From positions 1 through 44,046 of IMG/VR virus record IMGVR_UViG_3300026367_000108: 44,046 bases of DNA; one strand, 5' to 3'. The stretch's first letter is position 1. Each line of letters begins with the position of its first letter. The stretch comes from a virus. Both the position numbers and the translations under genes were made by a program. Positions 17,592 through 44,046 of the stretch are shown here, in pieces. The notes beneath the pieces are model-generated. The model searched no databases. It was not told the DNA's origin and saw only the letters and a program-made list of their open reading frames with translations.

Positions 17592-18506
17592 TTAGATAAC
17601 GCTTTGTAAGAAGTAACTAGCAGCTTTGGCCATTAGCACTTCTTTCACGCTTTCGCCTACTCGGACGACTTTGCCACCACGTAACCCGACGTTTTTGTCT
17701 TCCCAGGAGCCTGAAACACGAGTTTCATACTCTGCGGTTAGCATGTACGTTAAATCGTCTCTAAGTTGCGCTGCTGGCTTGATGTATAGCAATGCTGCGC
17801 CACCTGTCCACAAACGCTCGATAACCGCTGTCTGACCTTCACGTTGCGAATTGTGACGCGATACACCGACTAGGATTTTCACGTTAAACAACTGCTCGAT
17901 GAACGATAGAGGCACCAAACCCTCTTGGCCGTCATTACCATGAAAGGCTTTCACGATCTGCACGTTACGGCGCAGGGCTAGCGCTTCTGAGACACCTAAA
18001 ACTAATGTGTTTGGTGTGACTAGCGGGGTGTTCATGGCGTCGGTGATTTGTTCGATCGGCTTAGACGCTGGATCCGTCCATTTGTCAGTGCCGGTTATCA
18101 CTTCGTTGTGCGTATGGTTCGCGGCATTCATTACTGTGTTGGCGATACGCTTTTCACGGCCAAGAGAAATTAATTCACTTAGCTTAAGCGAGATATTACC
18201 TTCTGGATTAATGGATGGGTGGCCTTTGGCTGCGTTGACGTCTGCCATTGGGATTACGTCTTCTAAACCGTAATCTAGCACTGAGTCGCTTTTTTCGGTC
18301 GCTGTGAATTCGACCTGGTTTACGCGACCTTTACGGCCGACCATGGTGTTTGGAATTGTTAGCATTTCGTCGCTGTTGTATTCCGTCCACTTAAAGGTTT
18401 CACTTAACACTGGGGTTCGCGGTGCGACCATATCAGCGATGAAACCTTCGTTTTTGTAACCCAGGGCGATGGCCGTGAGTTTCTTATCTGCTACAAATGG
18501 GTTCAT
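17592..18506 (-). CDS. Major capsid protein (HK97-fold, E/Mu-T type)
   Basis: 304 residues. The order follows the family: N-arm MNPFVADKKLTAIALGYKNE, PRTPVLSETFKWTEY, the helix with LISLGREKRIANTVMN, the NTLVLGVSEALALRRN segment and the C-terminal TAEYETRVSGSWEDKNVGLR. It has an AAGGAG ribosome site. It follows the I-like protease/scaffold and the DUF2190-like decoration gene, and a terminator stands behind it, as expected for the most abundant head protein. Confidence 0.9.
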   Translation of the reverse strand: MNPFVADKKLTAIALGYKNEGFIADMVAPRTPVLSETFKWTEYNSDEMLTIPNTMVGRKGRVNQVEFTATEKSDSVLDYGLEDVIPMADVNAAKGHPSINPEGNISLKLSELISLGREKRIANTVMNAANHTHNEVITGTDKWTDPASKPIEQITDAMNTPLVTPNTLVLGVSEALALRRNVQIVKAFHGNDGQEGLVPLSFIEQLFNVKILVGVSRHNSQREGQTAVIERLWTGGAALLYIKPAAQLRDDLTYMLTAEYETRVSGSWEDKNVGLRGGKVVRVGESVKEVLMAKAASYFLQSVI

Positions 18507-24369: not shown

Positions 24370-24954
24370 TTATTTGCAGAATGCAATACCTAGCTCTACC
24401 CACTCTTTGGTGTTGACTAACTTAGTGATGTCGATTATTTGCACGGCGATTCGCTGGCCTCTAAATCCGTGCTCGTAAAGCGTTTCACAGACGTAGTTTG
24501 CATACCCGCTTCGGTTAGAGCCATCGTTTATGACTCCAACTTTAAATATGTTATCTGCTGCCCATATAGCGTCTTTTGCTGTTGGCTCTTTTGGGCTTTT
24601 AAATATATTGGCCACTCTGATTCTAGCGCTTGAAAGATCTGCTGTTGGTGCCGATGCTGTCGGGGTTGCCACTGTTGACTTTGGTTTTTCCGTTGGAGTT
24701 GGGGTTGCCACTGCTTGTTTGGCGACGACTGTTACTTCTTCTGCCGGCACTTTGCTGGCTTTTTCGGTGTAACCTTGATAGCTGGTGTAAACCTGATAGG
24801 CAATAAAGGCAAAAAAACCGTATACGATTAGGCGCATTATTGAGTATTGCTTTACTTTTTTTAGTGGTGCTTTGGTGCCGCATTGTGGGCAAAATTTACT
24901 ATCGCTTGCTATTTCTGAGTTGCATTTTCTACAAACGTTTGTGGTCTTATCCAT
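24370..24954 (-). CDS. Membrane-anchored zinc-ribbon protein
   Basis: 194 residues from the ATG at 24954 (MDKTTNVCRKCNSEIASDSK). Two C-x2-C pairs (VCRKC, FCPQC) form a zinc ribbon at about residues 8-27. One membrane segment follows (MRLIVYGFFAFIAYQVY, about 40-56), then a Thr/Pro/Ala-rich linker and a C-terminal domain (about 105-194) with two Cys. The DZR-type ribbon plus single membrane helix is common in bacterial accessory proteins. The longer frame back to 25116 would run through the regulatory region and is rejected. Possibly a superinfection or envelope function; inference. Confidence 0.7.
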   Translation of the reverse strand: MDKTTNVCRKCNSEIASDSKFCPQCGTKAPLKKVKQYSIMRLIVYGFFAFIAYQVYTSYQGYTEKASKVPAEEVTVVAKQAVATPTPTEKPKSTVATPTASAPTADLSSARIRVANIFKSPKEPTAKDAIWAADNIFKVGVINDGSNRSGYANYVCETLYEHGFRGQRIAVQIIDITKLVNTKEWVELGIAFCK

Positions 24955-25184
24955 GGATAATGGTTCCTGCTGTTGGTTTTGGTGTCGGGGGCTAAAAATC
25001 ACCGCCATAGGTGGCTGTGCCGGTCTTATTTCCCTTTCGGGTATTGTATTCGCCCACCCCCGACCGACAGAGATTAACATCGGTGACAATGTTGCACAAT
25101 ATCGCGGGTTGGACATTACTTTCTGGCGGGTTGCTTAGCAATAGAAAAGTTCGATAATACGTACTAAGTTCAATAAAGCGTACT
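24955..25184. promoter_or_regulatory. 230-bp regulatory region without a gene
   Basis: Holds two tandem operators (25149-25164 and 25168-25183) and, between them on the minus strand, a TATTAT that could be a -10 box with a weak -35. A G-rich stretch and a small CACC/GGTG hairpin followed by T5 (near 25000) may act as an attenuator in the leader of the zinc-ribbon gene. No convincing small gene was found. Confidence 0.5.
25149..25183. promoter_or_regulatory. Tandem operators GTTC-N8-GTAC (two copies)
   Basis: GTTCGATAATACGTAC and GTTCAATAAAGCGTAC, centres 19 bp apart, so on nearly the same DNA face. Same family as the immunity-region sites. They would bring the accessory/ssb unit under CI control. 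Confidence 0.65.
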
Positions 25185-25352
25185 CTACTGCTCCAATTTT
25201 ATTAGTTTTTTTAGCTTATTCAGTCCACCGATTGGCTTAAACTGGCTTAATTGCTCGTCTGTTAAATCGGTGCCGTCTTCCACTGCCTGGGCTGTGTACA
25301 TGCGATCTTCATCGTCTGTCGGCTGCTTAATTTTTTGTTTGTTGGTTTTCAT
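25185..25352 (-). CDS. BrnA-like antitoxin/immunity protein (55 aa, short form)
   Basis: 55 residues. The part DDEDRMYTAQAVEDGTDLTD, then EQLSQFKPIGGL, resembles the N-terminal part of BrnA antitoxins (acidic start, then D-L-T-D-E-x-L-x-x-x-x-P). The DNA-binding C-terminal part of full BrnA is absent. The start overlaps the end of the MuF-BrnT gene by 26 bases, so toxin domain and partner are made together. This order (toxin-bearing gene, then small partner) fits an immunity role. Supported by neighbourhood and modest resemblance. Confidence 0.6.
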   Translation of the reverse strand: MKTNKQKIKQPTDDEDRMYTAQAVEDGTDLTDEQLSQFKPIGGLNKLKKLIKLEQ

Positions 25353-27465
25353 AAGTCTTAATCTCGCGTTTGTTTGCTTTCCTTAGTGATATTGCTCGCA
25401 TGCCTTTGCCTGTTGCTATAAATACAAATACATGGAGCCTGCCGGCTATGACGCCCTGAACGATAAACCTCTGTTCGTTGTAATCGCTCCTGGTGTCCTC
25501 GGTAATGATGGCTCTTGCCCAGTCTATTTCAGACACTTTAGTAAAGTCTAGTCCTCGTTCAGTGATGTTCTTCTGGTTTTTCACTGGGTCGTATTCTAAT
25601 TCCATACCGTTGATGTTATCCACAGCAGTTCGCCCTTTTATGTCTGGCGTCCCTATAGCTTTCAGTAATGGTTTAGTGTTCTTAGATATGGCTTTGGTTG
25701 CCTGCTTGCCTTTTTTCGCCTGTGCGGCTGCCTCTGGGTCTGTTTTGGCTATCTTTGCCAGTTTTTCTTGCTCCAGTTCGGCTAACTTAGCGAATTGGCT
25801 TTTGCCTGAGTTGTTCACGAACCCTGGATCCACTCCTATTGGTATGGTGTGAGCTTTGCCGGTTGTTGGGTTCGTCCATAAATCATACTTTGGCTTTGGC
25901 GGCTTTGAAATTGTGAGCCCTTGTGCGGCTATTTCGTCTGCATCCATTTGTATTACACCACATCTACAGTTGTGTACTATTAAACCCTGTGCTACTACTA
26001 TGCTTTCACTACTTTGGAAATCATAAACGTGCCCGCTAAAATCAAAATTGAAAACCTTGATAACTGGGTCGAGTTGTACTTGTCTGGTGTAAGTATTAAG
26101 CAAATAGCTGAACAAATCGGAATTGATAGAACCACGGTCACCAGAGAATTTCGCGATGCTGGTGTCAATATCAGAACCAGATCCCAAGCCGAAGTTATTA
26201 AGTGGCAATCCATCAAAAAGGATCGTGCTGCAGTCGTTAGGCAGTGCGGTGCTGCGTGGGCTGCTGCTGCCTCTAGGAACGATGACATTGAACTCGCCAT
26301 CTTGAGACTCAATCGAGAAGAAAGGCTTTCCTCCAGGGCTATTGCTCTTAGGCTTAATGTTAGTCGCGGGTGCGTCACTACCACCTTGAAAAGTAATGGT
26401 GTCAAATGCGATGATTGGGCAGAAAGAAGATCTAATGGCGTCCAGCGCGGCGGTTTGGTTTCCGGTCAAATCAGTCCTTTCGAGACCCCCTTCGTTGAGA
26501 TATTGATCTCCAATGGGTTTCGGGTTGTCCATCAGTTTGCTATTGCCGGCTTTAATGTTGATATCGCTTTGCCTGAATGCAATATCATCATTGAGGTTGA
26601 GCGTGGTGGTTTGAACCATAGCAAAAGCCTCAGACTTGAGCGTTTGGAACAAATTTTCAGCGCTGGTTTTAAGCTCTTGGTTGTTAGTGACAATACCAAG
26701 GATGGGTTCGACTATGTTGCTATATGCGAGAAGATTATCTCCTACGCAAATATTACCAGCAACAATCCATCCTTTCCTGGTCAGTATCGGGTGATTAGGA
26801 GTAACGGAGAGTTGGCGACCACTCGCAGTAAGTATTTTAATGGCTTTACCGTTATGCCTGCGCTTGATTCCTCCTTGGATATCTCCTGAAATTTCGGTTT
26901 CAGGCAAAAAGCAATTCCAGCCGTTCGGTGGGTAGTGAGAATCCCAGAAAGGATCGTCAACGGGTAAAACCAGGCCGTCATTGTGGCGATGTTCTGCTCG
27001 CGTGGCTCCGTCGTCTACGGCGTCGTACATCAGGTAGGGCATGTCTGCCTTGCTTTCCTCGATGGCTTGCCATTGTCCTGCGGCATAGCTGCTCTGTAGG
27101 TTTGTTCGGAAAATAGTTTCTAGCCTGGACGCGCTGCCCAGTTGCACCTTGGTGATGTGTCCGGTCGCGGCGTCGATTACGTCCTTTTTGCCCCACCATC
27201 CTTTCTTCTGCAGTATTGGGATCATGTTCTTCTTGAAGTCGGCCAGGGTGCCACCGGCCTCGATGGCTTTGTCCAGCTCATGGCGAATGGCGAGCAATAA
27301 ATCGTCGTCCATCATTTTGGCAACTGTAAAAGCTGCGTCATGTTGCTTGCCGATCATTTCATGCCAGTTATAAGACTGCTTTAAGCCTTTACCGGAAAAG
27401 TAGGCGATCGCTTGTTCCGGTGGCAGGTCAAATGTGGCGGCCGCTTCAAAATAATTAATGATCAT
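25327..27465 (-). CDS. MuF-type minor head protein with intein and C-terminal BrnT toxin domain
   Basis: 712 residues before splicing. MuF/SPP1-gp7-like domain at about 1-184 and 500-510, with the signature HYPPNGWN joined to CRCGV. An intein occupies residues 185-499; splicing would leave a 397-residue protein. After an Ala/Lys-rich linker, residues about 615-712 match the BrnT RNase toxin: LEYDPVKNQKNITERGLDF, NEQRFIVQGVIAGRLHVF and RAISLRKANKREIKTYE. MuF proteins enter the head with the portal; toxin-tailed MuF proteins are a known polymorphic toxin class of temperate phages. The start overlaps the portal stop (TAATG). Confidence 0.9.
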   Translation of the reverse strand: MIINYFEAAATFDLPPEQAIAYFSGKGLKQSYNWHEMIGKQHDAAFTVAKMMDDDLLLAIRHELDKAIEAGGTLADFKKNMIPILQKKGWWGKKDVIDAATGHITKVQLGSASRLETIFRTNLQSSYAAGQWQAIEESKADMPYLMYDAVDDGATRAEHRHNDGLVLPVDDPFWDSHYPPNGWNCFLPETEISGDIQGGIKRRHNGKAIKILTASGRQLSVTPNHPILTRKGWIVAGNICVGDNLLAYSNIVEPILGIVTNNQELKTSAENLFQTLKSEAFAMVQTTTLNLNDDIAFRQSDINIKAGNSKLMDNPKPIGDQYLNEGGLERTDLTGNQTAALDAIRSSFCPIIAFDTITFQGGSDAPATNIKPKSNSPGGKPFFSIESQDGEFNVIVPRGSSSPRSTALPNDCSTILFDGLPLNNFGLGSGSDIDTSIAKFSGDRGSINSDLFSYLLNTYTRQVQLDPVIKVFNFDFSGHVYDFQSSESIVVAQGLIVHNCRCGVIQMDADEIAAQGLTISKPPKPKYDLWTNPTTGKAHTIPIGVDPGFVNNSGKSQFAKLAELEQEKLAKIAKTDPEAAAQAKKGKQATKAISKNTKPLLKAIGTPDIKGRTAVDNINGMELEYDPVKNQKNITERGLDFTKVSEIDWARAIITEDTRSDYNEQRFIVQGVIAGRLHVFVFIATGKGMRAISLRKANKREIKTYENQQTKN
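25969..26913 (-). mobile_element. Intein (315 aa) in the MuF gene
   Basis: Residues 185-499 of the MuF protein. Block A is CFLPETEI with the N-terminal Cys nucleophile. Block B is LSVTPNHPILTRKGW with the TxxH motif, followed by VGDNLL. Block F is GHVYDFQS. Block G is GLIVHN with the terminal Asn, and Cys is the next extein residue. All splicing residues are present. About 170-220 residues between the two Hint halves have no in-frame endonuclease motif and are Gly/Ser/Asp/Asn-rich; their antisense strand encodes the endonuclease. Confidence 0.92.
26029..26889 (+). CDS. Putative homing endonuclease encoded antisense within the intein
   Basis: About 286 residues from GTG at 26029 (TTG at 26014 also possible). 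First HTH: GVSIKQIAEQIGIDRTTVTR. Second HTH: RLSSRAIALRLNVSRGCVTT. Nuclease core: ETPFVEILISNGFRVVHQF, then FNVDIALPECNIIIEVERGG and ERLEQIFSAGFKLLVVSD, a Vsr/DUF559-like PD-(D/E)XK fold with likely catalytic Asp and Glu. HTH units plus a Vsr-like core is the build of the EDxHD/Vsr-type phage homing endonucleases. It lies wholly inside the intein reading frame on the other strand, in exact codon register. GGAAA lies 8 bases before the GTG. No in-frame ATG is available for a start. Confidence 0.8.
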   Translation: MPAKIKIENLDNWVELYLSGVSIKQIAEQIGIDRTTVTREFRDAGVNIRTRSQAEVIKWQSIKKDRAAVVRQCGAAWAAAASRNDDIELAILRLNREERLSSRAIALRLNVSRGCVTTTLKSNGVKCDDWAERRSNGVQRGGLVSGQISPFETPFVEILISNGFRVVHQFAIAGFNVDIALPECNIIIEVERGGLNHSKSLRLERLEQIFSAGFKLLVVSDNTKDGFDYVAICEKIISYANITSNNPSFPGQYRVIRSNGELATTRSKYFNGFTVMPALDSSLDIS

Positions 27466-28958
27466 TACTTGCTACCTTTGAACATTCCCATTAATCGGCT
27501 GACCAGGGTTGCGTTGCGGATTGTCTCTGCGGCCTGTTCGCTGGCTGGCTCTGCCATTAGCTCGTTTAAGTGCTTTTTGAACGTGTCCACATCGTCGGTT
27601 TCTTCCATGAACGATAGGAGCTGCTCGATCCGCTTGCCGTACAAGTCCTTGTATTTGGTTGCCATGTACTCTGCGGCGTCGACAAGCGCTTGCTGGTCTT
27701 GTCTGTGCGCGATCCGCTTTTGGGTTAGGGCGGTGACTTCTGCAAAGTCGGCATTCATTTCTGGTAGCCCGTTGGCGGTCGGTGGGAGTACGGCCTCTTT
27801 CTTGCGCCATCCTTCGCCATAGGTTTCTTTGATGTATTCCTCGGTTGGCTCATAACCTAATTTTGTGATTTCGGCATCGCGCTTGGCCACTTCGAGTAAG
27901 TTTATTTCTGGCTCTGTTCTGCGCCATACTTTTGGTGGTTTTGCGTTGGGAAAGTTCCAGGCGATTAGGCGCTTGACCACCTGGTCGTTGAACGAGGCAC
28001 ATACCAAGTCGGCATCGCTTTTGATTAGTTCCTCTTTGACGCCTTGATGTACTTCGGCTTGGCTTCTGCTGCTGCCGTTGTCTGTGGTCATGGTTTGGGA
28101 TAGCACTATTTTGGCGATCGCTGCGTCCATCGCGCCTTTTAGCCCTTCGTAATCAACCGAACCGCTGCGGGTGGCTTCTAGTAGTTCGATTACAAAGTCT
28201 TCCGGTATTACGACGCCGCTGTCTGCTTGTATTGCGTCGATTATCTCTAATGCTTGGCCTCGCTTTTCTTCGTCCTGGTATTGAGCGTTGTTTAGCTTGG
28301 CCACGGCGGTTGGCATGCTGAATTTTTCTAGGTGAATCATCCAGAATTTAATGCCGTTACGCTTAAAAAATACAGGCCAGTAGAGCGAATGCGCTAAACC
28401 TTCGCCGTATGGGTTGTCGTCGTGGCTTGCGCCCATGGAGACTACCCAGAAGTTTTCGGGAGGCATTATTTTGTTTTTAAAGTTATCGGTTTTTAAATAC
28501 AGATTGCCTTCGACGTCAAAGCCAAACCTTGCGCGATCTCTTACTTTGATTTTGTCGATTACGACGCGCCCTTCTGCGATGGTGTATAGGGTTTCTGCCA
28601 CTGACCAGCCGTAGTGGATGGCATAAAGCATTTTATCGGTGATGTTGTCGAACCCGATCCGGTCTAGTTCGCCTCTGAGCCATTCTGCGGCCTCTTCGTC
28701 TTCTGGGCTTTCTGTTGCTGCGTCAACGTACCATTCAGCGTTTGTGATGGCTGTGCGGCGTTGTTGAAATGTGCTTTTTACCTGGTCGTCGCGTAGTAGG
28801 TCGGTATAAACACGAAGCCGGCCACCTTGTTGTTGTAATACTGGATCGGGGTTTTCGAGCATGCCGTCAATAAATGCCCTGGTTAGCATTATTCCGTGAT
28901 CCGCTCGGGACATTTCTGTCAGCTTTAGTTTTGCCGGTGCGTTTTTCTTGTCTGCCAT
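27465..28958 (-). CDS. Portal protein (DUF935, Mu gp29-like)
   Basis: 497 residues. DUF935 landmarks: RLRVYTDLLRDDQVKSTFQQ, RRTAITNAEWYVDA, YAIHYGWSVAETLYTI, FWMIHLEKFSMPTAVAK and MTTDNGSSRSQAEVHQGV. It forms the dodecameric portal at the head vertex through which terminase packages DNA. It lies between large terminase and MuF as in Mu-type heads. Family length is typical. Confidence 0.93.
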   Translation of the reverse strand: MADKKNAPAKLKLTEMSRADHGIMLTRAFIDGMLENPDPVLQQQGGRLRVYTDLLRDDQVKSTFQQRRTAITNAEWYVDAATESPEDEEAAEWLRGELDRIGFDNITDKMLYAIHYGWSVAETLYTIAEGRVVIDKIKVRDRARFGFDVEGNLYLKTDNFKNKIMPPENFWVVSMGASHDDNPYGEGLAHSLYWPVFFKRNGIKFWMIHLEKFSMPTAVAKLNNAQYQDEEKRGQALEIIDAIQADSGVVIPEDFVIELLEATRSGSVDYEGLKGAMDAAIAKIVLSQTMTTDNGSSRSQAEVHQGVKEELIKSDADLVCASFNDQVVKRLIAWNFPNAKPPKVWRRTEPEINLLEVAKRDAEITKLGYEPTEEYIKETYGEGWRKKEAVLPPTANGLPEMNADFAEVTALTQKRIAHRQDQQALVDAAEYMATKYKDLYGKRIEQLLSFMEETDDVDTFKKHLNELMAEPASEQAAETIRNATLVSRLMGMFKGSK

Positions 28959-28961
28959 GGT

Positions 28962-30620
28962 TTAAAATCCTCTATATTTAGTGTTGTTTCGGCGCACTGG
29001 TTTGCCTCGGCCGTTTATTTCTGCTTCTAACGTTCCGGCGTTGCGCTTGCCGGTTGACGCCATCCAAATGTCTGTAGATTTCCCGACTACCCAGTCTATG
29101 TACTGGCTCACGCTGTCCACTTGGTCGTCGTGTGTCGATAGTGGGAATCCGAAGAACTCACTTTCAAAATCCATTAGCCATGGCGCTATTTGCGGTAAAT
29201 AAACCTGCTGCGCTTCGACGGTTGAGCTTGACCTGACGGCTCTTTCTAGCTTGTTGCCTTTGGGCTCTATCGCCACCACCGGCATAAAAATAGGTTTTGG
29301 ATAGCCTTCTAGTCTTACGCCGGTACGGCACTCTTGTATTAAGCTCTGGCCGCTTGATTTGTCCTCAATGAGTACGGTATCTGGCCGCCAGTTCATGTAT
29401 AAATTTGCCAGGATGCGTTTTAACTCTGGGTACTCGACGCGATCCCGCCATACGCTTAACAAATAATGGGCTCGCTCCGTTTGCCCCCAGATGGTTAACA
29501 CACTTGGGTCGTTTATCTGTTCTGGTTTATAAGCTGTGTCAAGGCTAAACGTTACCCGTAAAAATTCCGCTGGCGGTGTCTGGTACCGCTGAACCCATGC
29601 GCGTTTAAAGATTGAACCCTCGGCCGGCTTCGGTTGCTGCTGGTATAGCGATCCCCAGTTTCTGACGCCTTGGACGCGCTTTTCTCTTACCCAGTGTTCC
29701 TCGCTAAACCATTCCGTCCATAACCACTCGCCTATTTCACGACCTAGCGGATCGTCTTCTCGTTCGCATTGCGCGGGTAGGCATACGACATACCATGGTT
29801 CACCGTCCTTGCTCATTACCCAGCCTGATTCGCCGTTCCAGTTGTCGGGTAATATCCGGCCGCTTAAGTCGTCTTCGTGCCATCGTGTTTGCACTATGGT
29901 GATGAACGCGCCAGGTTTTAAACGTGTTCGTAAGTCGTTTAGGTAGGCGTCCCAGGTCTTTTCGCGGATCTTTGGGCTGTCTGCGTCTTCGCGGCCTTTG
30001 ATGGGGTCGTCAATGACGAGGCCGTCTGCCCTGTTGCCGGTGATGCCTGATAGGATCCCGCCGCACATGTAGGTGGATCCGTTGGTCAATGCCCAGTCGT
30101 CTATTGCCCTGTTATCTGATCGCAGTCGGGAATCAAACAATTGATTGTATTGGCCGCTGCTGGTTATGCTTCGGCATTTGCGGCCAAACTTACGGGCTAG
30201 GCTGGCACCGTAGCTGGTGCTGATGATGTTTTTGTTTGGGTTTTTGCCCATGTACCAAGTTGGGAAGGTCACGCTCACATAGGTCGATTTGGCGCTGCCT
30301 GGTGGCATCATTACCAAGAGTCGGTTGTATGTGTAGCCGGTTTCGGGATCTATTTCTTTGCGCTCGACCTTTTCCAGTATGCTGTTTAATAAGCTGTGAT
30401 GCTCTGCCGGCTCTACTGTGTCGGGATAAAAAGCGCTTGTTATTTCGTGAAGCTTACACTTTGGATCGTCGCATCTGTCGCCGTCAGGGCATGTGTCCTC
30501 TTTCAGTGGTGCGCCTGGGATCTCGATGTACCTGCAGTAATCATCTAAGCTAATTGTCGCTTGATATCTGCGATCGGCTTCGAGTAATTCTAGGTACTCG
30601 AGTTCCTCGGCTGCTGTCAT
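28962..30620 (-). CDS. Terminase large subunit
   Basis: 552 residues. ATPase domain with Walker A MMPPGSAKST (about 104-113), Walker B GLVIDDP (about 200-206) and coupling motif QTRWHEDDLSGR. The RNase H-like nuclease domain has its first Asp in FSLDTAYKPEQ and a later Asp in THDDQVDS. An N-terminal Cys cluster (CPDGDRCDDPKC, about 44-55) is an added feature that may bind zinc. It packages DNA into heads and cuts it. It overlaps the small subunit gene by 4 bases. Confidence 0.95.
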   Translation of the reverse strand: MTAAEELEYLELLEADRRYQATISLDDYCRYIEIPGAPLKEDTCPDGDRCDDPKCKLHEITSAFYPDTVEPAEHHSLLNSILEKVERKEIDPETGYTYNRLLVMMPPGSAKSTYVSVTFPTWYMGKNPNKNIISTSYGASLARKFGRKCRSITSSGQYNQLFDSRLRSDNRAIDDWALTNGSTYMCGGILSGITGNRADGLVIDDPIKGREDADSPKIREKTWDAYLNDLRTRLKPGAFITIVQTRWHEDDLSGRILPDNWNGESGWVMSKDGEPWYVVCLPAQCEREDDPLGREIGEWLWTEWFSEEHWVREKRVQGVRNWGSLYQQQPKPAEGSIFKRAWVQRYQTPPAEFLRVTFSLDTAYKPEQINDPSVLTIWGQTERAHYLLSVWRDRVEYPELKRILANLYMNWRPDTVLIEDKSSGQSLIQECRTGVRLEGYPKPIFMPVVAIEPKGNKLERAVRSSSTVEAQQVYLPQIAPWLMDFESEFFGFPLSTHDDQVDSVSQYIDWVVGKSTDIWMASTGKRNAGTLEAEINGRGKPVRRNNTKYRGF

Positions 30621-31072: not shown

Positions 31073-32419
31073 TTATCCTTGAACGCATGAGTTGAATGTC
31101 GCACCGGTGTCTTGCAGGATCGCGTCCTGTCCACTGAACTCTTGGTATCTTCTGACAATGACGTCAGCGTAAATAGGATCCAGTTCCATCACTCGAGCTT
31201 TGCGGCCTATCTTTTCACACGCGACCATTGTCGAACCACTGCCTGCGCAAAAGTCTATGACCACATCGCCTCGCCTGGTGCTGTTCTTCAATTGCCCGAC
31301 GATCAGCCTGATAGGTTTCATGGTCGGGTGCTCGCCGTTCTTGACGGGCTTGTCTTCGCGTATGATGGTTGTTGCCAGTGTGTTTCGTAGTTCGCGTATG
31401 TAGTTTGCCATCTGGTTTTTATCCATGGCTTTTACATCTGGCTGGTCGTCTATGACGGTTGTCTTGTTGAACTCGCCGTACCATTTGTGCGCTGCGCCTG
31501 GTTTCCATCCGTATAAAATGGGCTCATGGACCCACTGGTGGTCTTGTCGCCCAAGGACTAAGCCGTTTTTAACCCAGATAAGGCATTGCTTCACGCCGAG
31601 GCCGGCTTCCCTGGCTGCGCCTCTAAAGTTCTCGCCTTCGCTGTCTGCGTGGGCAATATAAAACGGGGCTCCTTGTTTAAGCACTGTGCAGCAACTGGTG
31701 AATAAGTCCGTCAGAAACAACCTAAAGTTGTCATTGCTCATGCTGTCGTTCTTGATCTTCTTGCCGTCCGTTCCTTCGTAGTCGACGTTGTATGGCGGGT
31801 CAATCCACAAGCAATCGGCCTGTTCGCCGGCCATCAGTGTTTCTACGTGCTCGATGTTGCAACTGTCGCCGCACATGAGGCGGTGATTGCCCAGGATCCA
31901 AACATCGCCTGGTTGCGTCACGGCGTTTTGTTGGGTGCTTGGCGCTTCGTCGTCGTCAATCTGACCTTCTACCTCGACTTCTTCAATGTCAGGGTTATCG
32001 CTCATTAGGCTTTCAAGGAATGCGTTTAGCTCGTCGTCTGCTACGATGTCGATGCTTTCCAGTAGGTCGTCTAGCATGGCCTGGTCTTGCTCTGCCATTG
32101 CGCCTAATGGGTCGATGCTGGCGAGGGCGATTTTCTCTTGTTGTTCGGTCAGTTCGACGTACTTAACCGGCACCTTTTCGCCTTTTTCTTTGGCCAGGTC
32201 AACGCGCAGATGTCCGTCGATAATGTGGCCTGTTGTGCGGTTGACGATGACGTCCTGGATCCAGCCAATCTCGTTTAAAACGCCATTTAATGCCTGGCGT
32301 TGGTGCTTCGGGTGGTTTCTAAAGTTGAAGGGGTTAGCCATCAGTGTTTTGGGATCTTCAAATCCCGAGCTGACGATCCTGTTTTCCCATAGGCTTTCTT
32401 TTTCTACTGCGTTAGTCAT
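31073..32419 (-). CDS. ParB-domain DNA methyltransferase
   Basis: 448 residues from MTNAVEKESLWENRIVSSGF at 32419, where AGGA precedes the ATG; an earlier ATG has no such site. Residues about 20-105 are a ParB/Srx-like domain (DGHLRVDLAKEKGEKVPVKY). The methyltransferase part has catalytic motif IV DPPYNVDY (about 208-214) before the AdoMet motif I FCAGSGST (about 390-397), the order of beta-class adenine or N4-cytosine enzymes. It likely modifies phage DNA against host restriction. Its place just ahead of terminase is common. Confidence 0.9.
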   Translation of the reverse strand: MTNAVEKESLWENRIVSSGFEDPKTLMANPFNFRNHPKHQRQALNGVLNEIGWIQDVIVNRTTGHIIDGHLRVDLAKEKGEKVPVKYVELTEQQEKIALASIDPLGAMAEQDQAMLDDLLESIDIVADDELNAFLESLMSDNPDIEEVEVEGQIDDDEAPSTQQNAVTQPGDVWILGNHRLMCGDSCNIEHVETLMAGEQADCLWIDPPYNVDYEGTDGKKIKNDSMSNDNFRLFLTDLFTSCCTVLKQGAPFYIAHADSEGENFRGAAREAGLGVKQCLIWVKNGLVLGRQDHQWVHEPILYGWKPGAAHKWYGEFNKTTVIDDQPDVKAMDKNQMANYIRELRNTLATTIIREDKPVKNGEHPTMKPIRLIVGQLKNSTRRGDVVIDFCAGSGSTMVACEKIGRKARVMELDPIYADVIVRRYQEFSGQDAILQDTGATFNSCVQG

Positions 32420-32484
32420 TTGCGATCCTGGTTTTGTTTTTGTTGTTGGTACCACTGCTGGCGCTCGTCGTAGTAGTGACTCAT
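32416..32484 (-). CDS. Possible 22-aa peptide between DUF1353 and methyltransferase genes
   Basis: MSHYYDERQQWYQQQKQNQD plus two residues. Start and stop both overlap the neighbours as ATGA, suggesting translational coupling, but it has no ribosome site and is very short. It may only be a coupling device that carries ribosomes to the methyltransferase start. Confidence 0.3.
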   Translation of the reverse strand: MSHYYDERQQWYQQQKQNQDRK

Positions 32485-32837
32485 AGGCCGTTAAACTTGG
32501 CGTAAATCCGCACTCCAAAATAAAGTATTTGGCTGTTTATTTTGTTTACGCCGGTGTCGAGCAGGGCTTCTTTGAATAGGCGGTCTGCTTCTTTTCGCGT
32601 GTAGCTTGGAGTTGCTAGGGCTGCGTCATGGATGATTGCTGCATCTTTAATCTTGCCGCTGTTTGAATATGCCCAGCGCAAATACCAAGGGACGGTGGCT
32701 AGGTCGGTTTTTGTGCCTGTTCTTATATGCAGTACTCGCCCTAGCTCTGAGCTTTCGAATGTTTGGTTCTCGGCAACTCTAAAGCTGCCGGTACCTGGGA
32801 TGCTAACGAGGCTGATTGCGCCTTTTAGTTTTTTCAT
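32481..32837 (-). CDS. DUF1353-like phage protein
   Basis: 118 residues from MKKLKGAISLVSIPGTGSFR at 32837; the frame extends upstream but only into the overlapping holin-like gene. The family pattern is clear: TDLATVPWYLRWAYSNSGKI, DAAIIHDAAL and EADRLFKEALLDTGV. DUF1353 proteins are small phage proteins of unknown role often found near lysis or packaging genes. Confidence 0.8.
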   Translation of the reverse strand: MKKLKGAISLVSIPGTGSFRVAENQTFESSELGRVLHIRTGTKTDLATVPWYLRWAYSNSGKIKDAAIIHDAALATPSYTRKEADRLFKEALLDTGVNKINSQILYFGVRIYAKFNGL

Positions 32838-37512: not shown

Positions 37513-38232
37513 ATGAAAGACGAAAATATTAAGGAATGTATTGAAATGCCCATAAAGCAAAATTTAAGCAAAGTCAGGGAAGAGTCAGCGGCGCGTCTTA
37601 ACCGCAGGGCGGCTGAGTTGAACATTAAGCAGGTCGATGTGGTTCGCTATTTGTCTTCTTCTAAATCCACGGTTAATGGTTGGTTTGCCGGCAAGGCACA
37701 GCCGAGAGGTAATGATCTATTAAAATTATGTCGTATGCTCAAATGCTCTGTTGATTGGTATGTGACGGGCTCTGGCTCTGTCGCTCCTACCACTGAACTG
37801 CTGGCCTTTGCGGTTTTTCCTGGCACTTGGGAGGCCGATCTTGACTCTGGGGCTCAGTTTTATCGTGTGCCTGCTCTGATGCCTGATGGAACGCTGGATC
37901 GTGATGGTGCAATGCCTATTCACAGATCGTCGTTTGTTGAGTTTAAATCCATTGCTTTGGCTGCCTGGTTTTGGTCAACAGGCGGTAGTGCTCGGCCGCT
38001 GGTGTCTGAGGGTGATATGGTTCTGGTCGACACTTCTGAGGATAAATCCATGGTGTCAGGCGGCGTGTACGCCTTTAAATATGCGGGTGGATTTAATATT
38101 CATAAAACATTTGCCAATGTTGACGGCTCCCTTGTTCTTGAGGACTCGACAAGGCCTGGCGGCAGTTTGACGGTTAAAGCGTCAGACGTAAAAGTGATAG
38201 GGCGTGTTTTGCACCGTTCTGGTTCACTGTAA
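37513..38232 (+). CDS. CI-type phage repressor (HTH plus S24 peptidase-like domain)
   Basis: 239 residues with GGAGG upstream. HTH at about residues 35-75 (LNIKQVDVVRYLSSSKSTVN, GWFAGKAQPRGNDLLKLCRM). C-terminal S24/LexA-like domain with Ser in GGSARPLVSEGDMVLVD (Met after Ser replaced by Ala) and Lys in FNIHKTF. It should hold lytic promoters shut through the GTTC-N8-GAAC sites. Oddity: no Ala-Gly or Cys-Gly dipeptide occurs in the linker, so RecA-stimulated self-cleavage is uncertain. Confidence 0.88.
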   Translation: MKDENIKECIEMPIKQNLSKVREESAARLNRRAAELNIKQVDVVRYLSSSKSTVNGWFAGKAQPRGNDLLKLCRMLKCSVDWYVTGSGSVAPTTELLAFAVFPGTWEADLDSGAQFYRVPALMPDGTLDRDGAMPIHRSSFVEFKSIALAAWFWSTGGSARPLVSEGDMVLVDTSEDKSMVSGGVYAFKYAGGFNIHKTFANVDGSLVLEDSTRPGGSLTVKASDVKVIGRVLHRSGSL

Positions 38233-42491: not shown

Positions 42492-42775
42492 TGCCCAAGT
42501 ATAAAGATGGCGATTTAATCCAGTTATTTGGCGATATTGAAGACCACTACATAAAGGGTCACGTTTCAAACGCCGCAGCTCAAATGGTAATGGATAAAGA
42601 GTATGGCGATAAAAAAGTAATATCAATTAAACATACTTTTGCTTTTTGGGGTGTGGGCTGTGATGAAACTGGGCAGCCATGCCAGATATTTTATGATCGA
42701 AGTAACCCTGGCCGCGGTCGATTCAAAGTGACTGAGGTTAAATATTCTGTTGATATTTATGAAGAGGCGCACTAA
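42491..42775 (+). CDS. Hypothetical early protein (94 aa)
   Basis: 94 residues from MPKYKDGDLIQLFGDIEDHY, start overlapping the upstream stop as TAATG; an earlier ATG lies within the membrane-protein gene. SH3-like beta barrel appearance (GDLIQLFGD, IKHTFAFWGVGCDETGQP). Its stop overlaps the integrase stop from the opposite strand. Confidence 0.75.
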   Translation: MPKYKDGDLIQLFGDIEDHYIKGHVSNAAAQMVMDKEYGDKKVISIKHTFAFWGVGCDETGQPCQIFYDRSNPGRGRFKVTEVKYSVDIYEEAH

Positions 42776-44046
42776 GCGCCTTTTCTTTTGCCTATCACTG
42801 TCACATTGTCTCGCTGGTTCCAAATATTATCTAGTCTCTGGTACCACTTCTGGTACCCGATTAACTGCTCTTGCAAATAGTCGTATTTGTCGTAAGTCTC
42901 AAACTCGCCGGTTAGTGCGTGGCCTATCATCTTTTCTGCGATATGGGGCTCTGTGAGCTTGCTCATGTTGGTTCGCATGGTTCGCCTTAAGTCGTGCTTA
43001 GTCCAGTGCTTAACGTTGGCCTCTGGGTGCGTTTTGTTGATCTTGTGCGTTAGGCGCATTGAAATGTCGAGTAGGGCGGTTTCGCCCATGGGTTCGCCGT
43101 TCTCCTTTGGAAATAAATATTTACTTTTTGGTTTGAGCTTTATCGCCTGGTTGAATAGCTCGATTGTTTCCGCAAATAATGGCCGCTTTATCTCTCGGTT
43201 TAAATCTGGCCTTTTGGCATCCTTTGGCTTTGCTATTTCTCTTGGTACCGTCCACACGCCGTTTTTAAAATCGAGGTGGTGTGGTTGCAATAGCCTTAGT
43301 TCGATTGTTCTGCAGCCGTAAATAATGAGCAGCTTAAACAGGATCTTATTTCCTGGCTTGATGCGGCTTTCTTCAATGGCATTAAATACCAGGTATAGTT
43401 CCTCGTCGCTGAGTGTCCGTTCGCCTCGCTTGTTGCTGATCCCAAGTGTTCGCTTTGCGGTGAATTCCATCAATGGATGCTCCTTTGTTAGTCCGTTGCC
43501 TACTGCCCATCCTGCGGCTGATTTTACGGCCGTGACCATTCGCTGTGTGATTGCCGGCACTCGCCGTTTCATGTCCTGAAAAAGCGACGACCATTGCCGT
43601 CTGTCAACTAGATCCCATGGTGTTGATCCTAGCTTCGGGAATATGTGGATCTCAAAGCCCCTTTTGACGTCATACGGGTATTTGTTCCTGACTGCGTAGT
43701 CTGGGTGATCTTTGAAAAAGTCCTCCCACCATTCAAGCAACATGCGCTTAACTGTGTACTCGGTCGTTTGCTTCGTTCTATCGACTATTCTTTCGCGCTT
43801 CGGGTTTTTATCCTCTGCGATCATGGCCTGGTATTTTTTGGCGATCTCTGACGCTTCGGTGATCCCTAATTCGGGATAACTACCGATGGCGATCTTTTCT
43901 TCTTTACCCAGCCATTTATATCGAAACACAAAAGTAATGGATCCGGTTTTGCGGATCCTGGCACTGAGGCCGTACCGGTGCGCTTTGACGACTTCCTTTT
44001 CCTGGGGCTTGTTTAATTTGCTGTCTAAAAATTTGACTGTAAGCAT
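42772..44046 (-). CDS. int: Tyrosine-type prophage integrase (P4-like)
   Basis: 424 residues. N-terminal DUF4102 arm-binding domain (LSARIRKTGSITFVFRYKWL, EEKIAIGSYPELGITEA), SAM-like core-binding domain and catalytic domain with Arg in YGCRTIELRLL, H-x-x-R in HDLRRTMRTN, His in IGHAL and the Tyr in YDKYDYLQEQ. It recombines attP and attB. P4-type integrases usually start next to the att site, often a tRNA end, so the right junction is expected just beyond 44,046. The ATG is on the last three bases of the window. Confidence 0.95.
   Translation of the reverse strand: MLTVKFLDSKLNKPQEKEVVKAHRYGLSARIRKTGSITFVFRYKWLGKEEKIAIGSYPELGITEASEIAKKYQAMIAEDKNPKRERIVDRTKQTTEYTVKRMLLEWWEDFFKDHPDYAVRNKYPYDVKRGFEIHIFPKLGSTPWDLVDRRQWSSLFQDMKRRVPAITQRMVTAVKSAAGWAVGNGLTKEHPLMEFTAKRTLGISNKRGERTLSDEELYLVFNAIEESRIKPGNKILFKLLIIYGCRTIELRLLQPHHLDFKNGVWTVPREIAKPKDAKRPDLNREIKRPLFAETIELFNQAIKLKPKSKYLFPKENGEPMGETALLDISMRLTHKINKTHPEANVKHWTKHDLRRTMRTNMSKLTEPHIAEKMIGHALTGEFETYDKYDYLQEQLIGYQKWYQRLDNIWNQRDNVTVIGKRKGA

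Follow-up and report, generated by a model that had tools for sequence, protein, structure and literature searches.

The window analysed here, the entire 44,046-base virus record IMGVR_UViG_3300026367_000108, contains a head protein gene that is very probably a chimera of three layers: a virion protein whose tail is a captured toxin–antitoxin (TA) toxin, an intein that interrupts this protein and, on the opposite strand, a homing endonuclease gene codon-for-codon complementary to the intein linker. The antisense arrangement is apparently the rule for the whole endonuclease family (93/93 loci, from phages of gammaproteobacteria and actinobacteria), and the intein would be mobile via the antisense gene; therefore, some 230–300 codons would be under selection on both strands. 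This antisense endonuclease gene, which the first-pass annotation did not record, is more unusual than the toxin tail. As regards the tail, it is fairly probable that the gene, in a temperate phage, encodes a MuF polymorphic toxin in which brnT has been fused to a head gene and a BrnA-derived partner confers immunity, with toxicity and delivery as presumed properties of the fusion.

A head protein gene of a temperate phage and its BrnT tail

The relevant features of the window are the following:
17592–18506, minus strand: major head protein (phrog_1005, E 7.5e-69)
25185–25352, minus strand: 55-residue ORF, likely a shortened BrnA without the ribbon-helix-helix (RHH) domain, overlapping the MuF stop by 26 nt
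25327–27465, minus strand: MuF-type head protein gene of 712 residues, interrupted by an intein and with BrnT at its end (ORF, Pfam and PHROG)
25330–25605, minus strand: BrnT toxin tail, residues 621–712 (Pfam, PHROG, AF2 and Foldseek)
25969–26913, minus strand: intein, residues 185–499 (TIGR01445, 25.1 bits, cut-off 24.5; same insertion site in locus L017)
26029–26889, plus strand: antisense gene within the intein, 286 residues, GTG start, helix-turn-helix (HTH) and Vsr/EDxHD-like endonuclease
26911–27288, minus strand: Phage_Mu_F domain, residues 60–185 (Pfam, E 4.6e-20)
27465–28958, minus strand: portal protein (phrog_113, E 1.2e-107)
28962–30620, minus strand: terminase large subunit (phrog_38, E 3.5e-102)
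37513–38232, plus strand: CI-like repressor, a temperate marker (phrog_4, E 1.8e-18)
42772–44046, minus strand: tyrosine integrase, a temperate marker (Pfam Phage_integrase, E 2.5e-14)

The MuF gene sits in the head and packaging module, where portal and terminase genes adjoin it, and a major head gene is present in the same phage. Since a tyrosine integrase and a CI-like repressor are encoded together with RecT, the phage is very likely temperate, in agreement with the first-pass annotation of this DNA. A search for near DNA in phages with 16 kb returned no match. The gene at 31073–32518 on the minus strand encodes a DNA methyltransferase with matches to ParB-like partition families in its N-terminal part.

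The MuF ORF matches phrog_220, 'minor head protein and DNA pilot' (E 9.5e-83), and contains both the MuF and the BrnT domains above their Pfam cut-offs. Residues 625–701 align with the complete BrnT_toxin profile (PF04365, positions 1–77 of 77; E 4.5e-18, 65.8 bits, cut-off 34.5), while residues 621–709 match phrog_4399, 'ribonuclease toxin of AT system' (E 4.3e-31), a similarity that at the sequence level is far above chance. The BrnT domain and the motifs quoted for it in the first-pass annotation are present, with a size of 92 residues (621–712) instead of the 98 proposed there. An AlphaFold2 model of the tail, built with 28 BrnT relatives, reached a pLDDT of 92.7 and a pTM of 0.82, and its sole Foldseek match below 0.001 was 7vd7_A, the toxin in a Salmonella toxin–antitoxin complex (E 1.6e-5, TM 0.79). 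The modelled tail has a BrnT-like (BECR) fold, BECR being the fold given for BrnT in passages of PMC11980606. In a sequence search of solved structures, 7vd7_A (0.032) also ranked ahead of the Brucella BrnT 3u97 (0.97), both as weak matches.

The tail was compared with 84 phage BrnTs, 80 from IMG/VR loci and four from phage records, which include 34 distinct sequences below 85% identity. All near-invariant columns of this set are kept save for one I in place of V, while two C-terminal columns that are mostly gaps in the 84 sequences also differ, and the tail has no stop and no frameshift. Lys, His and Glu are reported as important residues of characterised BrnTs; in our own mapping, via the shared KHG motif, they fall at columns 16, 17 and 81. 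The tail has Glu, Arg and Glu at these positions, i.e., the Glu is kept and Lys-His is replaced by Glu-Arg, and because of this replacement RNase activity is predicted but not assured. However, Glu at column 16 (46/84) and Arg at column 17 (54/84) are common among the phage BrnTs, and Glu-Arg is therefore, on this alignment, a subfamily trait and not a sign of decay; the initial suspicion of catalytic decay was dropped for this reason. Phage BrnTs at loci L198–L277 include a large group in which Glu-Arg replaces Lys-His.

The 55-residue partner and the toxin–immunity reading

The 55-residue ORF had no match in Pfam (PF14384 included), PHROG, NCBIfam or the phage collection, and searches of solved structures with this protein and with a BrnA gave nothing useful. 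An RHH-bearing BrnA starts 8–32 nt before the brnT end in 74/80 BrnT loci, a range that includes the 26-nt overlap of the window ORF, and the two such neighbours checked against Pfam match BrnA_antitoxin (E 1.1e-26 and 7.5e-22). Against a profile of BrnA N-termini, the ORF scored 22.0 bits (E 2.1e-5), where none of 5000 shuffles exceeded 9.9 bits; it ranked first among 748 window ORFs. This profile comprises 15 unique N-termini from a subset of 20/74 BrnAs picked for the PTxxED motif that the window ORF itself has, a choice that biases the test in favour of a match. With a full-length BrnA profile the ORF reached 8.7 bits and 4/5000 shuffles scored higher, which gives no separation. Because the former profile separates and the latter fails, identity with the N-terminal part of BrnA, as suggested in the first-pass annotation, is likely, not proven.

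The ORF stops about where the RHH would start, and the DNA-binding half is missing. Thus, of the two hallmarks of a canonical BrnTA operon, the window shows the overlap of the partner with the toxin gene and lacks the C-terminal ribbon-helix-helix. Weak RHH-like matches lie out of frame downstream of the ORF, at about 25036–25128 (tblastn E 0.036–0.078), and may represent a remnant or chance. Immediately downstream of the ORF, a zinc-ribbon protein of phrog_7191 (function unknown) is encoded at 24370–25116 on the minus strand.

These data bear on the idea that the BrnT tail is an inactive passenger, a mere structural extension accompanied by a brnA remnant. The exchange of Lys-His for Glu-Arg, the reduction of BrnA to 55 residues and the weak RHH-like matches would agree with it; nevertheless, Glu and Arg are frequent at these columns in phage BrnTs and 74/80 of the loci have a full BrnA neighbour, while the frame is free of stops and frameshifts and the conserved columns are intact. 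This explanation is accordingly given a quite small probability.

In the preferred reading, that of a polymorphic toxin with an immunity partner, brnT became fused in frame onto the 3' end of a head-morphogenesis gene. The intein would first splice out of the MuF protein, whose MuF part, judging from MuF biology, would put the BrnT domain into the head or onto the portal complex. The tail is probably carried in the phage head, and delivery of BrnT into other cells is plausible; once injected, BrnT would act on RNA, whether of competitors or of the cell infected next. The 55-residue gene would be a leftover of brnTA without its DNA-binding half, neutralising the toxin as an immunity protein both in the producing cell and in the lysogen. 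The missing RHH is consistent with a partner that has given up operon control.

The alternative raised in the first-pass annotation, an addiction module, is less well supported: the toxin forms part of a head gene, and the DNA-binding portion through which a brnTA operon regulates itself is missing from the partner. In its general form, this explanation holds that a TA module for prophage maintenance or exclusion was merely fused to the head gene, so that BrnT acts in the lysogen, by addiction or in an abortive response to a competing phage, and the short BrnA restrains it. The overlap of brnT with the BrnA-like ORF is indeed that of standalone brnTA operons, and phages do hold standalone BrnT–BrnA pairs. 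Nonetheless, the toxin belongs to a head protein encoded next to portal and terminase, and the partner is devoid of the RHH half that controls the operon in BrnA (passages of PMC11980606). Moreover, the putative start of a free BrnT at 25605 has, by eye, no well-placed Shine–Dalgarno sequence. We regard such a module as unlikely.

Tails of related MuF proteins

The reading as a polymorphic toxin is further informed by the relatives of the carrier protein. According to our own MuF profile, 193/197 surveyed loci have a MuF ORF, 192 of them besides that of the window; in 18 the ORF is truncated at a contig end. Dereplication left 145 complete MuF ORFs; once that of the window and two whose remainder was too short were set aside, these provided 142 C-termini. 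Pfam recognised PBECR2 in 27 of these, MuF_C in 13, PBECR3 in eight, ADPrib_exo_Tox in seven, ART in three, Intein_splicing and HipA_C in two each, and three more families in one each. These families indicate that effectors are exchanged at the MuF tail, many of which are, by name, BECR-type nucleases. The polymorphic class invoked in the first-pass annotation is thereby recovered, including the alternative C-terminal toxins (PBECR2, PBECR3, ADPrib_exo_Tox and ART) that it proposed to look for on other MuF genes. Close MuF relatives of 1250–1690 residues at loci L006, L017, L041, L043, L044 and L118 have a common C-terminal region with the motifs GSNPGGxYxDTxTG ... and GGAxYFFTRI ... WPDGR; this region, which has no Pfam family match in the L006 protein, is possibly a large effector of unknown kind.

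BrnT was absent from the 142 C-termini by Pfam and, with a profile from five BrnTs, from the MuF frame of all 192 other loci. A single-sequence scan of IMG/VR with the tail found no other MuF–BrnT fusion; standalone BrnT occurred in six phage records, four of which were inspected, and none of the 80 IMG/VR BrnT loci had a MuF fusion. BrnT matches were present in 147/369 gammaproteobacterial genomes, and the window tail was matched in 74/398 genomes of the phylum, two samples that overlap in part. Among the matches listed there were six long open frames, none of which is a MuF fusion on reading: their upstream parts look like out-of-frame noise, and the four that were compared with a MuF profile gave no match. 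As no second fusion was found in phage loci or genome samples, the MuF–BrnT fusion of the window may be a one-off. No paper with both MuF and BrnT as whole words was found in the open-licence PMC literature.

Passages of PMC5576092 (Jamet 2017) describe MuF toxins with immunity genes in temperate phages, and passages of PMC12226406 report that a MuF-borne synthetase domain (Apk2 toxins) is toxic in E. coli and neutralised by its own immunity proteins. With the systems covered in these passages, the window gene shares the MuF N-terminus, the head-gene neighbourhood in a temperate phage, a toxin-like C-terminus that varies among relatives, and a small ORF directly downstream. In contrast, the window gene has an intein, and a type II TA operon was the source of its toxin and partner; the word BrnT has 0 occurrences in the main text of PMC5576092. 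MuF proteins with PBECR2 or PBECR3 tails (35/142 relatives' C-termini) have a BECR-fold nuclease domain on the same carrier, whereas the window tail comes from a different Pfam family. As for type II BrnTA operons, the BrnT fold and residues are shared, as is an overlapping downstream partner with a BrnA-like N-terminus, but in the window the toxin is fused to a virion protein and the partner has no ribbon-helix-helix domain.

The intein and the gene opposite its linker

The intein, already noticed in the first-pass annotation, has both splicing motifs and junction residues. TIGR01445 exceeds its cut-off and Pfam Intein_splicing falls under its own (E 2.3e-6); the junctions are C185 and HN499/C500, and all of 46 aligned sense ORFs share N499 and C500. 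These 46, including the window, match Intein_splicing in 39 cases, Phage_Mu_F in 36 and phrog_15127, 'head protein', in 46/46.

The opposite strand carries an ORF of 286 codons, exactly complementary to intein codons, with GGAA about 9 nt upstream of its GTG start. An open antisense frame requires that TTA, CTA and TCA be absent from the sense strand, and none of them occurs among the 25 Leu and 27 Ser codons of the region. In 14 window genes, TTA and CTA account for 333/598 Leu codons and TCA for 106/478 Ser codons, so that the chance of a stop-free antisense frame is about 1.7e-12; the test has little power in GC-rich relatives (P 0.02–0.12 in 7/14 examined). Disjoint pairs of relatives with 40–97% identity all (32/32) show more variation at the third antisense position, which is the first of the sense codon, than at the first, which is the third of the sense codon, and in all of them identity is higher for the antisense than for the sense sequence. 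The N-extein follows the usual pattern in eight pairs, e.g., with sense positions 1, 2 and 3 changed 2, 1 and 35 times. At 20–40% identity the linker pattern is weaker (2891/3662 pairs). Based on this codon-position pattern and the higher antisense identity, the antisense protein is under tighter constraint than the sense protein in the linker.

The antisense protein has an HTH above the Pfam cut-off. By itself it gives a weak nuclease match (MTES_1575, E 0.022), and REase_MTES_1575 is matched by 35/46 aligned sequences of the family. In its AF2 model (pLDDT 86.6, pTM 0.54) the catalytic fold is Vsr-like: the best Foldseek matches, at probability 1.00 and none with E <=0.001, were Vsr 1cw0 (E 7.1e-3) and I-Bth0305I 3r3p (E 1.2e-2). 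The nearest known systems are thus I-Bth0305I (EDxHD) and Vsr, with which the model shares the catalytic-domain fold (3r3p TM 0.69 by target length, and 1cw0), an HTH part and the phage setting. Unlike them, the window gene is antisense to an intein, and the Foldseek E values of this comparison are only 0.007–0.012. Intein endonucleases are described in passages of PMC3943268 as translated in fusion with the intein.

A codon-aligned opposite ORF covers at least 95% of the match in 93/93 family loci (L278–L370), a count in which one search gave the best 80 of 88 matches, some loci are almost the same, and L279 and L308 represent a single contig. The family matches come from Salmonella, Escherichia, Pseudomonas, Cronobacter, Vibrio, Gordonia and Mycobacterium phages. 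The record of Escherichia phage Snoke (L286, 1516–2265, plus strand) has an annotation for the MuF intein and none for a protein-coding gene on the opposite strand, though the same endonuclease family is encoded there.

The possibility that the antisense ORF is a mere shadow of a conserved intein was rejected in view of the avoided stop codons, the distribution of changes over codon positions, the domains and the fold. Judged from sequence and model together, the ORF is a real, selected gene, whose product looks like the intein's own DNA-cutting mobility enzyme, for which homing would be the expected activity. No description of an endonuclease encoded antisense to an intein was found in searches of the open-licence PMC literature.

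If the toxin–immunity reading is true, a single fusion would turn a stock toxin–antitoxin pair into a delivered effector and its immunity protein, and an antitoxin could drop its regulatory half once it serves solely for immunity. Likewise, if the antisense gene is what it appears to be, it would represent a new way for inteins to carry mobility and a gene still unannotated in many sequenced phages. Moreover, such a long double-coding region would allow measuring which of the two strands is constrained.
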